From positions 1-32,582 of the IMG/VR virus record IMGVR_UViG_3300021197_000869: a DNA stretch of 32,582 nucleotides. One strand, 5' to 3'. Source of the DNA: a virus. Every line of letters begins with the position of its first letter. Position 1 is the stretch's first letter. The position numbers were made by a program, and so were the translations under genes. Positions 7,001 to 29,604 of this stretch are shown here, piece by piece. The notes beneath the pieces are model-generated. The model was not told the DNA's origin and did not search any database. It was given only the letters and a program-made list of their open reading frames with translations.

Positions 7001-7146
7001 GAACCGAAGTTACCGTTGCTCATCGCGGCGGAACGACTGAAAGAGGTGTGATCGTGGGCCGCACGTATTCGAACCCAATCCGATATGACGTGGCAACGTC
7101 TGACAAGATTTTGACGGACGTGTTTGCGGATCAGATTGATGAATAG
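6976..7146 (+). CDS. Small hypothetical protein, 56 aa
   Basis: ATG at 6976 follows GGAGAGAG; an upstream ATG at 6964 in the same frame is possible. The protein is beta-rich (RLRTEVTVAHRGGTTERGVI then SNPIRYDVATSDKILTDVFA), resembling a small SH3/KOW-like barrel. It overlaps both neighbours, as expected in this compact operon. Function unknown. Confidence 0.6.
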   Translation: MEDRPIRLRTEVTVAHRGGTTERGVIVGRTYSNPIRYDVATSDKILTDVFADQIDE

Positions 7147-7831
7147 CGTGGTCAGTTTTGACGGTGGCACACCGGACTTCATGTCCGACTGGGTCGCTGC
7201 GCTTCATGCAATGGACAACCCGAACCTCGACGGACGAGCCAACTATGGCACCTATCCGACGCTCGGCGGGTGCCTGACTGCCGCAAAGGCAGCATTGTCA
7301 GGGCATAACCTGGCTGTGATGCAGCTCGTATGCCCCGGCGAAGACGGCCAGCCCGACCGGCTGGTCACGCGCATAATCCACACGTCCGGTCAATCGCTGG
7401 AAGATGGCGGCGTGCCGCTCTACTGCGCGGACAAGAACAACCCTCAAAAGCTCGGGTCCGCGATCACATACGCACGCCGGTACGGCCTGCTTGCAATGAT
7501 GGGGGTCGTGGGTGACGACGACGACGATGGCAACGCTGCCACGCCGCCAGAACAGCGTCCACGATCCAAAACTGCGGCAACACCGACACCAGTAAAACGT
7601 GTTGCAGACGAGATACCTCTCACACCAGCGGATGAGCGGGCGGATTACGCTTCTTGGACACTTGAGGCGATTGCGGGCTTTGCAGCCCACCGTGATCTCG
7701 CGCAGCACACAGCTTGGGCGTCAGTCAACAGACCAACCCTCGACCAGATGAAAGTTGACGCGCCACAGGAACGGCAAAAATTACTTGAAGCGTTCACAAC
7801 CAGAAAAGGAGAACTAGCAAATGCCGAATGA
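7139..7831 (+). CDS. erf: ERF-family single-strand annealing protein
   Basis: A 230-residue recombinase. The N-terminal two-thirds carry the ERF fold, including PTLGGCLTAAKAALSGHNLA and the signature GSAITYARRYGLLAMMGVVG followed by an Asp run (DDDDDG), typical of P22 Erf relatives that anneal ssDNA and circularise or repair phage genomes. The C-terminal part is a Pro/Thr-rich linker and a helical tail. The start at 7139 is chosen because it begins at the family N-terminus and overlaps the previous gene by 8 nt. Partner of the upstream nuclease and probably of the SSB-tailed protein downstream. Confidence 0.9.
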   Translation: MNSVVSFDGGTPDFMSDWVAALHAMDNPNLDGRANYGTYPTLGGCLTAAKAALSGHNLAVMQLVCPGEDGQPDRLVTRIIHTSGQSLEDGGVPLYCADKNNPQKLGSAITYARRYGLLAMMGVVGDDDDDGNAATPPEQRPRSKTAATPTPVKRVADEIPLTPADERADYASWTLEAIAGFAAHRDLAQHTAWASVNRPTLDQMKVDAPQERQKLLEAFTTRKGELANAE

Positions 7832-10176: not shown

Positions 10177-11209
10177 GTGATCTTTTCCAGGTTAGAAATT
10201 CTGCGCCTTCTTTGAGATCACCGAACGGTTTTACCCGGCAGTTAGGTGCCGCCGTTGGATCGATGACAAAGATGATAGATGAGCCGTATTGCTCTTCCGT
10301 AAATCCATGGCGGTGGCCGAACTCATCGTGCCATTTGTAGCCACGCGCCCTTGCCATGTTGACGACCTGACCGCCGGCATTTTCTTCCTGCGCCAGCGCC
10401 CAGGTGTGATGATGGCCTGCCACAAATATATCGGCATCCTCGCCCCACAACGATGCGCGCTTCTGGCCGTGCAGCGGATTATAGATCGACGTGCCTTTGT
10501 GGTTATGGCTCGCGTCTACTCGAACCGTGGCACTTGGAAAGACCAGCTTGAACTGTGCGGACCAATCGATCATAGGAACCTGCCGGACGTTGATCGCTTT
10601 TAGATAGGTCGAAAACTCCGAATGCATCGTGTCGTGGTTGCCATGCAGCCAGACCAGCCACGGTATCTCCGCTTCCTTGAGAAACCACTGCGCCAGCTTG
10701 CGCTCGGTCGAACGACTAATATCTTCCTCGGCGTAGAGCTGTATCAGGCGACCGCCCCAGTTGTTCGTCGTGTCCCCGATGTTGACGCATCCGATGCCTG
10801 GCGTCGTCGCCATGATCTCCACGTCGCGCCGCAGCAGCGGAATGTTGCAGCTTGTCCCGAGATGCGGATCGCCCACCACGACCAATCCGAACGGATCGTC
10901 CGACGCAATCTTGATGTCGAACCATTTCTTGGCCTGCTGATGTTCCTGCTTCTTTTCCCAGCGCCGGGAAAGGTGGTCGAGGATTTCGTCGGGCGATATG
11001 TCCTCGTCAGGAAACTCTGGCAGCGTAACCTCGTCAGTGTCTTCTACTTTCTCCGCCTCTCCGAAACGAGTGTGCGCCGTTCGCACGCGGCCCTCAAAAG
11101 TGCTGCGATTGATGTTAAGTGCGCGAGCGGCACCTGAGACGCTGCCGTGTTCTTCGACCGCCGCAAGCGTTGCTAGGCATTGCTCATCTGTTAGTCCACG
11201 GGATGGCAT
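10172..11209 (-). CDS. Metallophosphoesterase with N-terminal HTH
   Basis: A 345-residue calcineurin-like phosphoesterase. Residues 1-50 form a helix-turn-helix of the Fis/HTH type (EHGSVSGAARALNINRSTFE). The catalytic domain shows the metal-binding series GDPHLG (113-118), GDTTNNW (145-151), GNHD (190-193) and GHHHTW (265-270). Such fused proteins are common in phages of proteobacteria, near the late gene block; the substrate is unknown but nucleic-acid or nucleotide phosphoester cleavage is likely. It is the last gene of the late transcript and starts in a TGATG overlap with the endolysin. The final codons overlap the last attP arm site. Confidence 0.9.
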   Translation of the reverse strand: MPSRGLTDEQCLATLAAVEEHGSVSGAARALNINRSTFEGRVRTAHTRFGEAEKVEDTDEVTLPEFPDEDISPDEILDHLSRRWEKKQEHQQAKKWFDIKIASDDPFGLVVVGDPHLGTSCNIPLLRRDVEIMATTPGIGCVNIGDTTNNWGGRLIQLYAEEDISRSTERKLAQWFLKEAEIPWLVWLHGNHDTMHSEFSTYLKAINVRQVPMIDWSAQFKLVFPSATVRVDASHNHKGTSIYNPLHGQKRASLWGEDADIFVAGHHHTWALAQEENAGGQVVNMARARGYKWHDEFGHRHGFTEEQYGSSIIFVIDPTAAPNCRVKPFGDLKEGAEFLTWKRSR

Positions 11210-11640
11210 CAGCTCACCATTTGCTTGGCAAGCCGCGCCGCGCGGGCTGGCACCTGGTTGGCAAAGCGACTGTCGAGCAGCTCGGCTGCGGCAAGCTCAT
11301 AATCAGGCGGCTGTTTTGCAAGCGCGCTTAGCATTCGATTAAAACCTGACAAGCGCGGCCAACCCAGCTGAAAGCAAAGCTGGACGACGACCGATTGGCG
11401 CGTTGGGTCAAGCTCGTCAAACCATGCCCACTGCTGGCACTCTTTAATGGTGCGGTCGATGTCATTGCGCAGCAGCAGCTCGGCCTCGTCTTCCGAAATA
11501 CCGATACCGCCGTGCTTCTGGTCGATATTCCTGCCATAGCCCACGGTATGAGCGCCTGCGGTGCATATGTAGCAGTGCGCTACGAAGCCCTCTTCCGCTT
11601 TGAGCGCGTCAGCGATCTCATCGATTGGATACATTTGCAT
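11209..11640 (-). CDS. Endolysin, T4-type lysozyme (GH24)
   Basis: A 143-residue muramidase that cleaves peptidoglycan at lysis. Active-site region EEGFVAHCYICTAGAHTVGYG aligns with T4 lysozyme: Glu17 (T4 Glu11), Cys26 (T4 Asp20), Thr32 (T4 Thr26), with identical spacing. The Asp-to-Cys change is a known natural variant of this family. No signal peptide or SAR segment, so export depends on a holin. ATG at 11640 is chosen because the fold begins directly after it; the frame is open to 11685 inside the holin gene, and 11634 is another start. Confidence 0.9.
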   Translation of the reverse strand: MQMYPIDEIADALKAEEGFVAHCYICTAGAHTVGYGRNIDQKHGGIGISEDEAELLLRNDIDRTIKECQQWAWFDELDPTRQSVVVQLCFQLGWPRLSGFNRMLSALAKQPPDYELAAAELLDSRFANQVPARAARLAKQMVS

Positions 11641-28071: not shown

Positions 28072-29604
28072 CTACTCGTTACACGCAATTTCAACGACTT
28101 TGTCTTCTTCCATCCGGGTCGAACCGAAGGTCGCGCAGTAGTAAACCTGCGTGGAATAAGACTTGTCGCTGCGCTCATCGATCCGAGCCATCACATCTTT
28201 GCCGACTGCCAGCTTGCAGCCGTCCTGCGCCCACGCATAACAAAGGCGCGAGGTGCCATCGTCTGACAGACGATTAGAAGTGATGAACTTGAAACCGACA
28301 AACGTGTCGATGTCACCCTGTACAAGTGCCTTCCGTCACACTTCGGCTTTCGCCGCCAGCTTTCGCTGTTCGTGCGCTGGACTTTCTCTTCATCTCGATG
28401 AGATGCTGCCCGTCAAGTCTCTACACCTTCCGCTTTCGCGGCTTGGCTCGGGATTAGCATTTTAAAGCCTTCCCCGAATTTGAGCAGTTTTCGTCTGACC
28501 GTCGCCGATCAGATAGGCAAAGTGTTTACCGTATTGAAATCACTTGAAGTTACAGAGGTCGTATTGAGCAGGTCTTCGATCTGCTCAGGGCTTACCACGA
28601 TGTATCGCGGAATGGACGGATCAACCGACTGCGAATCAATGAGTTTTTTTGCGCTCACCAATTTTGCAACTGTCAATCCGGCAGAACCATGCGCGATTTT
28701 CTGGCCGCTTGGGAACGACGTAGAGGTCGTTCCTTCCTTGCCGGTCTTCGCGGTTCCACCAAGTGCGCTGATGATGGTGTCGTCCATCGCACGACCTATC
28801 GCCGCCGCAGCCGCACGGGCATACGAGGACGTCGGGTCGATCAACATACGAACCTTGTCAGCATCGTCAATGTAACAGTTCAGTCAGAGGCGCTAACTCT
28901 GACCCGCTTTCGCTGCCTGCGGTTTCCCGCAGGATCGGACTATATCATCACCCCTTGCGGGGGCTGGGCGCTTCCACCGCGCTTGCGGTGTACTCCTTGC
29001 GGATAGTCTCTGAACCTTCTCTTTCGAGCTTGGCTGCTGATTGGCATATCCTTGCGGACTTAGCTTTCCAGCAGTTCACCCAGTTACGACCCCATTGAGG
29101 TCGGCCCATTCGTAAGTGGTCAGGCTAACCATTCTCCGAGAGTGCGGTGTTTCAACGAGGGGTGTATCCAGAATCTTCAATAAGAGACGCTACACTCTTA
29201 CCGGCTGTCTAGCAGCTCCCGACAATCTCTTGCCGGCTGAGACTATATCATCATCCCTTAGGATGCCCTGCGCTTCGGGCCGCTTGGCCCTACTCGCTTG
29301 CGCGATAGTCGTTGAACCTTCTCTTTCGAGCTTGGCTGCTGATTGCCCTCGGCTTCACGTTAGGGTGTCCCAGCAATTCACAGGGTTTTCATTTGGCTGT
29401 TACCAGCCAACGCTCCAATTAAATAGAGTGCCTCGATGACCGCGCTACTGCGGCTGCTTCTCCGACCTGGTCGAAGAAGGCTTTTTCGCCGGTGACACTT
29501 TCGGTGTCCACGGCACCTCGCAACAGACTTCCCATCTGCTGCGAGAGCATAGCGACGTTGGAACTGAATTGGTTCACAAACGCCGTATTTACCTGAGTTG
29601 ACAT
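28072..29604 (-). CDS. Major capsid protein, split by three group I introns
   Basis: Four exons: 29425-29604, 29098-29168, 28528-28875 and 28072-28333. Together they make 861 nt, a 286-residue HK97-fold-type capsid protein of the BPP-1 kind. Exon 1 gives VNTAFVNQFSSNVAMLSQQM and ESVTGEKAFFDQVG up to SSRHS. Exon 2 continues DTPLVETPHSRRMVSLTTYE and WADL. Exon 3 continues IDDADKVRMLIDPTSSYAR and ends DFNTV. Exon 4 continues KALVQGDIDTFVGFKF and ends EIACNE. The joined frame matches family order without gaps; the last intron's junction restores the frequent TVKALV motif. Unspliced, translation would stop after 61 residues. AGGAG precedes the ATG. Exon 3 may instead start at 28872 (285 residues). 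Confidence 0.9.
28334..28527 (-). ncRNA. Group I intron C in the capsid gene (194 nt, IC3-like)
   Basis: Core elements on the minus strand: P AAATTCGGGGAAGGC, Q AATCCCGAGCCAAGCC, R GGTGTAGAGACTTGACG, S AAGAGAAAGTCC. Pairings: P3 CUGC/GCAG, P4 CGGG/CCCG, P6 CCGC-GAAA-GCGG, P7 GACUU/AAGUC, P8 CAUCU/AGAUG, and two GCGAAAGC-type hairpins in P9. P1 is exon GGU plus intron AAA paired to UUUGCC, with the U-G at the splice site; P10 is exon GAAG with CUUU. P2 is UGAUC/GGUCA. The close resemblance to the tRNA introns of Azoarcus and Anabaena indicates subgroup IC3. It has no ORF and ends in G. Confidence 0.9.
28876..29097 (-). ncRNA. Group I intron B in the capsid gene (222 nt, IA-like)
   Basis: Minus-strand core: P GAACTGCTGGAAAGC, Q AATCAGCAGCCAAGC, R GTTCAGAGACTATC, S ATGATATAGTCC. 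Pairings: P3 CUGGG/CCCAG, P7 GACUAUC/GAUAUAGUC, P8 CCCC-GCAA-GGGG, a P9 hairpin CCUGCGG/CCGCAGG, and a second GUCAGAG/CUCUGAC. The insertion between P7 and P3 (P7.1/P7.2) marks subgroup IA, as in T4 td. P1 is exon CGACCU with GGGUCG. The 3' end is drawn at the G at 28876; exon start at 28872 would give a perfect 5-bp P10 and a residue-for-residue family match but an intron ending in A. It shares 33 identical nt with intron A. Confidence 0.9.
29169..29424 (-). ncRNA. Group I intron A in the capsid gene (256 nt, IA-like)
   Basis: Minus-strand core: P AATTGCTGGGA, Q AATCAGCAGCCAAGC, R GTTCAACGACTATC, S ATGATATAGTCTC; the R-to-S stretch follows the T4 td intron closely (ACGACTATC, GAGTAGGG, CAAG, CCCGAA, ATATAGTCT). 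Pairings: P2 UUGGCUG/CAGCCAA with a GUAA loop, P3 CCCUG/CAGGG, P7 GACUAUC/GAUAUAGUC, P8 CAUCC/GGAUG, with P7.1/P7.2 between. P1 is exon CUCU with GGAG, placing the U-G pair at the last exon base. The intron ends in G and the joined codons read Ser-Asp. No endonuclease gene is present. Confidence 0.92.

Follow-up and report, generated by a model that had tools for sequence, protein, structure and literature searches.

The window analysed here, a virus record of 32,582 bases, carries a major capsid protein (MCP) gene at 29604-28072 that is split by three group I introns; the gene, its exons and its introns all lie on the minus strand. By protein homology, the MCP gene consists of exon 1 (29425-29604), exon 2 (29098-29168), exon 3 (28528-28875) and exon 4 (28072-28333, including the stop codon), and these are separated by intron A (29169-29424, 256 nt), intron B (28876-29097, 222 nt) and intron C (28334-28527, 194 nt). 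The three introns scored 89.7, 76.6 and 53.4 bits respectively against RF00028, all above the Rfam gathering score. With A, B and C removed, the MCP frame is continuous over 286 aa plus a stop, and is collinear with intronless homologues. The capsid protein is 68-70% identical over its C-terminal 197 aa to those of the Pelagibacter phages HTVC035P and HTVC010P, and the host phage of intron C is HTVC010P-like. The best splice of intron B leaves one extra residue (Tyr, DL-Y-IDD) compared with the 285-aa intronless relatives, and both the intron B site and the extra codon are common to L017 and L018. The MCP gene of the HTVC010P-like group is an intron hotspot, with IA-like introns (assigned by eye) at many further codons (about 41, 65, 68, 71, 84, 92 and 258) in L006, L014, L016, L017, L025, L034, L035, L048, L049, L058 and L065. 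Elsewhere in the window there are genes for a VRR-NUC nuclease (2110-2535), an ERF-type recombinase (7124-7831) and a phage integrase (8461-9855). The phage has its own recombination gene and may be temperate.

The initial annotation had placed a group I intron of 194 nt at the position of intron C. Protein homology, which gives the splice sites as ...AATACGGU^AAAC...GACG^GAAGG... (28527-28334), returned exactly the same coordinates, and RF00028 matches the intron at 28537-28354 on the minus strand (E 5e-11). The score of this match is only just above the gathering score (53.4 vs 50 bits), which counts against the reading of intron C that we prefer below. Without splicing, translation past exon 3 would end at a stop codon no more than seven codons on (NTLPI*), and an early in-frame stop near the 5' splice site is present in 35 of 35 C-type MCP introns among the matches listed, which means that the MCP needs splicing. 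In the 237 bases of exon 4 compared between the window and the carrier L254, 20 changes are synonymous and 2 nonsynonymous, and the gene is therefore under purifying selection. A pooled dN/dS over the carriers was dropped, since that comparison was ungapped and inflated by indels, and the window was compared with L254 alone.

Relatives of intron C were obtained from IMG/VR by pattern scans with its own core, together with an MCP search. There were at least 193 core matches in at least 189 records, the window's own included. Among the 193 listed, 126 were within ARAGORN-called tRNA genes of viral contigs (58 Leu, 26 Arg, 13 Tyr and others; for example L093, L094 and L267), and 34 of the other 67 were MCP introns at the C site with both ends found. 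Rows L088, L104, L120 and L197 have what looks by eye like an open frame that begins in the P8 region and contains Cys pairs resembling those of an HNH protein. The alignment used below comprised the 28 distinct MCP introns among the matches listed, 27 at site C and one (L047) at another MCP site; L199, with no 5' end, was left out of the set.

Across these 28 distinct relatives, the claim that P1 to P9 are kept held up well: standard pairs, including those of the P7 pseudoknot, occupied 98.0% of the pair cells, and two-sided changes were found at 32 of the 60 pairs. The covariation score of the P1-P9 structure was 0.390, whereas shuffling gave 0.143 +/- 0.008 and sliding no more than 0.044; the slid control somewhat favours the structure, because it was drawn from the window sequence. 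RNAalifold unaided returned 48 pairs, 28 of them with two-sided changes, in largely the same helices without P7, and intron C folded alone gave a z of -3.5. In P1, the 5' exon target GGU (28528-28530), cut after its U, pairs with 28516-28518, and its GC, GC and UG pairs are kept in 28/28 rows, so that the U.G at the 5' splice site is invariant. P2 is a hairpin at 28494-28513 with a GCGA tetraloop at 28502-28505 and two-sided changes at 7/8 pairs. The covariation alignment also gave P4 (28473-28478/28447-28452), P5 (28467-28469/28456-28458) and the P6 5' strand (28445-28446), which together span 28445-28478, followed by the P6a hairpin (28430-28441; GAAA loop, two-sided changes at 3/4 pairs). 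P3 (28482-28487 with 28406-28411) and P7 (28415-28419 with 28380-28384) form the P3/P7 pseudoknot with the G-binding site. At this group I core, 100% of cells were paired in both helices, with two-sided changes at 4/6 pairs of P3 and at 1/5 of P7, where one pair goes from U-A to A-U. P8 is a hairpin at 28391-28405 with a CU:AG tandem. The P9 three-way domain (28337-28376), also found by covariation, comprises the P9 stem (28372-28376/28337-28341), P9a and P9b, the P9b loop being GAAA in 28/28 rows. The terminal intron G is present in all rows; in the relatives it was demanded by the search, whereas in the window it comes from protein homology. Short GNRA-type loops had also been claimed, and there are four of them, GCGA on P2 (L2) and GAAA on P6a, P9a and P9b, but L8 is AUC and L5 has 8 nt. 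P10, formed by the P1 loop (28519-28522) with the first exon 4 bases (28330-28333), had 98.1% of its 108 cells paired, and 3 of its 4 pairs showed changes on both sides. The first exon 4 base covaries with its P10 partner (U.G 12, U-A 11, C-G 4 and G-C 1 rows), and both splice sites are thereby tied together. These results support intron C as a complete, compact group I intron and, taken as a prediction from the sequence, it is almost certainly active.

The L2 loop and P8 vary together. In the 28 rows, among the matches listed, GCGA occurs with CU:AG in 15, GCAA with CC:GG in four and GAAA with a long P8 in eight, the exception to the rule being L159, which has GCGA with CC:GG. The mutual information between L2 and P8 types was reached by 0 of 10,000 permutations, with kinship not removed. 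GCGA loops are reported with AG/CU receptors in crystal structures, and the same paper gives GYAA loops with RG/CY receptors and a special receptor in IC3 introns (PMC3494683). In the Azoarcus intron, as described in a further paper (PMC2813881), the loops are those of P2 and P9 and the receptors are in P5 and P8. We therefore propose the CU:AG tandem as the receptor for the L2 GCGA. From this coupling, intron C very likely has a short version of the L2-P8 contact, and this would be one plain reason for its size.

P7 and P3' are separated by a 31-nt insert in introns A and B alike, and by 3 nt in C. An insert of this sort (P7.1/P7.2) between P7 and P3 is a trait of IA introns and is absent from intron C. 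Intron C furthermore has no P5abc, and its P5 is of 3 bp with an 8-nt loop. IC3 introns of tRNA genes include those of Azoarcus tRNA-Ile and of cyanobacterial and alphaproteobacterial tRNA-Leu UAA. As judged from its sequence, the core of intron C matches the IC3 introns of bacterial tRNA genes and not introns A and B, which makes the Azoarcus intron an apt comparison, as the initial annotation had it. Intron C and these tRNA introns share the same core, the lack of a P7-P3' insert and the GNRA loops on P2 and P9. The bacterial tRNA introns differ in having mostly a GAAA L2 with an 11-nt-like P8 arm (by eye) and lengths of 212-271 nt, whereas C has GCGA with a short CU:AG P8 in place of GAAA with the 11-nt/IC3 receptor, and a protein-coding host gene. 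Since C lies in an MCP gene and not in a tRNA anticodon loop, we refer to an IC3-like lineage and not to a tRNA intron. In a scan of 84,980 cellular species genomes with a 28-position stretch of the C core, two positions being free, 19 contigs matched, mostly labelled Alphaproteobacteria. The matches on 17 of the 19 were in ARAGORN-called tRNA genes, most of them tRNA-Leu(UAA), and within the stretches fetched no related MCP was found on any of the 19.

After 11 of the 193 listed core matches without parseable ends had been dropped, the remaining 182 gave 139 distinct introns (29 MCP, 92 tRNA and 18 other) for a tree, in which no IA or other subgroup served as contrast. Among these matches, a single branch (88/92; recovered in 87% of bootstrap trees) separates the 29 MCP introns from all the others. 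The IC3-like grouping draws on the sequence tree and the core pattern. Since the lineage is widespread in tRNA genes, we infer that it went from tRNA to capsid genes, a direction not read from the tree itself because support for the MCP branch is not strong and the root is arbitrary. A separate supported group (97/98) is formed by five of the other rows, L087, L127, L140, L144 and L176.

Compared with 50,697 phage records, intron C gave 10 matches, none of which covered more than 80% of its length. No feature is annotated under the two matches in capsid genes, those of HTVC120P and KM23-C739. The cultured Pelagibacter phage HTVC120P has an unannotated 197-nt capsid-gene intron (L293:1957-2153, equal to MH598807.1 19609-19805), which RF00028 missed at E 0.001, and its capsid gene is annotated as two capsid ORFs. 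In phage KM23-C739 (KT997847.1, L294), RF00028 matched at 1946-2126 and 2655-2835 in the capsid region, about 180 nt each, and removal of the first intron (180 nt) rejoins the capsid gene in frame. The introns of the two phages are like C in a core that is 80-81% alike over 55% of C, in being too short for an endonuclease gene, and in splitting a capsid gene that rejoins in frame. They are unlike C in lying in a T7-type capsid gene and in having a GCG guide and CGU sites. The viral contigs that share sequence with them, L127, L140 and L144, fall in the 97/98 group, apart from the MCP introns, and this suggests a second entry of the lineage into capsid genes. The C family itself seems to have settled in capsid genes.

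Small introns in phage protein genes, averaging about 206 nt, have been described from the huge gut Jug phages, where 37 of 76 predicted introns have support from metatranscriptomes as being spliced; these differ from C in their phages and in their genes (terL, nrdD and others) (PMC12363816). The Cluster J mycobacteriophages LittleE and BAKA have capsid/tail group I introns with confirmed splicing, which, like C, are in virion genes, that of BAKA without an endonuclease; unlike C, the LittleE insertion is of 819 bp with an endonuclease, the BAKA intron is of 265 nt, and neither is reported to be of a tRNA lineage (PMC3706429). A 2014 review stated that all phage introns then known were in protein-coding genes despite the many phage tRNA genes (PMC3984707); the 126 of 193 listed core matches in tRNA genes of viral contigs are contrary to this. 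In the parts of the literature searched, the introns mentioned for pelagiphages concern other genes, and no description of introns in HTVC010P-like capsid genes was found.

We conclude, with a probability of roughly 0.92, that the phage capsid gene carries, as intron C, a self-splicing group I intron that is IC3-like and belongs to the bacterial tRNA-intron lineage. Splicing of the pre-mRNA would begin with an attack on P1 (GGU of the exon paired with GCC of the intron, the U.G lying at the cut) by the guanosine that P7 binds. The exon U set free in this step would then attack just past G 28334, the final base of the intron. P10 would guide this second attack, by which exons 3 and 4 would be joined at V200-K201. 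The compact fold would be held partly by L2 (GCGA) docked in P8 (CU:AG), with a P9 GAAA loop probably docked in P5. A decayed remnant that needs a protein to splice, or an MCP that is now two separate genes, would be in keeping with the score near the Rfam threshold, and the activity of C is itself a prediction from sequence; nevertheless, the core is kept with compensatory changes, exon 4 is under purifying selection and P10 is tuned to exon 4, and we consider such decay highly improbable.

A near-minimum size selected for compactness within a packaged genome had also been proposed for intron C. The Azoarcus tRNA-Ile intron is about 205 nt, and C at 194 nt is slightly smaller, as claimed. The near-minimum claim itself is not supported by the lengths of other introns: among the matches listed, the 28 distinct MCP introns measure 190, 191, 192 (three), 193, 194 (nine), 195 (two), 198, 201, 202 (four), 204 (two), 206, 225 and 227 nt, so that 194 nt is the commonest length and six introns fall below it. 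For the 126 listed tRNA introns of C type, the median is 202 nt. Four of these (162, 172, 173 and 187 nt) were set aside, since ARAGORN put 93-97 nt in the tRNA; with the tRNA part held to 70-92 nt, the 122 left have, among the matches listed, a minimum of 183 nt and 11 below 194 nt. The first KM23-C739 intron is shorter still, and 194 nt is thus ordinary for small phage introns. That pressure on the size of the packaged genome trimmed C to a minimal ribozyme is therefore unlikely in our judgement. It is in favour of such pressure that the longer receptor arm has been replaced by the short CU:AG P8 and that, among the matches listed, the 28 MCP introns are slightly shorter than 28 tRNA introns of C type in contigs of at least 75 kb (medians 194 vs 203 nt; Mann-Whitney p = 0.007, with kinship not removed), a small shift that we link partly to the short P8. 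However, tRNA introns of 185-189 nt are also found in contigs of at least 75 kb, and related capsid introns reach 225-227 nt, so that selection for compactness is at best weakly supported. As for the GC-rich hairpins, which had been put down to selection as well, the GC of the intron core tracks that of the contig (Spearman 0.80, n = 135, among the matches listed), and composition therefore explains much of it. The survey of family lengths ruled out size as the main point of this intron.

The presence of intron C is polymorphic among close phages. L004 and L005 have introns A and B with an empty C site, and their MCP is 98.5% identical over the longest segment. The spliced MCP genes of the window and of C-free L004 show 67 differences over 858 bases, of which 60 fall at -183 to +99 of the site. 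In a three-way test, the window and the carrier L254 agree against L004 at 17/17 informative sites between -36 and +15. On either side, 30/30 sites (-150 to -51) and 5/5 sites (+81 to +99) join L254 and L004 against the window, and at -183 to -153 seven sites again join the two carriers; with L258 substituted for L254 the pattern is less clean. The short rows L105 and L160 and the rows with in-frame stops, L195 and L257, are left out of the flank comparison; L195 and L257 hold a further intron-like stretch. In the intron itself, the copies of L254, L258 and L195 each depart from that of the window at 1/194 positions. The swapped flanks would fit co-conversion, though so patchy an exon tract fits other causes too, and ordinary mosaic recombination could explain it. 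Intron C has no endonuclease gene: its 194 nt leave no room for one, and the frame from exon 3 closes early. Comparison of 32 window ORFs with PHROGs or Pfam (eight with both) brought up no recognisable homing endonuclease family. Intron C therefore probably spreads among phages by recombination in the exon sequence on either side of it, a process that a trans-acting endonuclease may initiate.

An alternative for the spread, compatible with what we take intron C to be, is reverse splicing at the RNA level, by which the lineage would have reached five GGU sites of one gene by means of an unchanged GCC guide. Among the matches listed, C-type introns are found at five MCP sites (L225, L047, two in L251, and site C), all after GGU and each with 3-5 P10 pairs with its own 3' exon; together with the lack of a recognised endonuclease, this agrees with reverse splicing. 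The two in L251 lie in one MCP gene (10868-11063 and 11425-11612), neither at site C. A chance product for the five GGU sites was dropped, as the sites may share one inherited guide. Reverse splicing would require reverse transcription and recombination, the swapped flanks resemble gene conversion at the DNA level, a trans-acting endonuclease is possible, and DNA targeting or shared descent of the guide could also keep the GGU sites, and we regard it as doubtful. A broader scenario, only slightly less doubtful and offered tentatively, is that IC3 tRNA introns entered phage capsid genes at least twice (the HTVC010P-like MCP and the T7-type capsid of other marine podoviruses) and spread among GGU or CGU sites within the gene without an endonuclease of their own, the guide staying unchanged, P10 being re-tuned to each 3' exon and L2/P8 re-made shorter.

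Taken alone, intron C is a group I ribozyme that is compact and ordinary. The family to which it belongs is a natural intron series, in one essential gene with five sites and with close phages with and without the intron. Since HTVC120P has been isolated and carries a related intron, splicing is assayable. The C family makes testable both the spread of introns without an endonuclease and the jumps of tRNA introns to protein genes.
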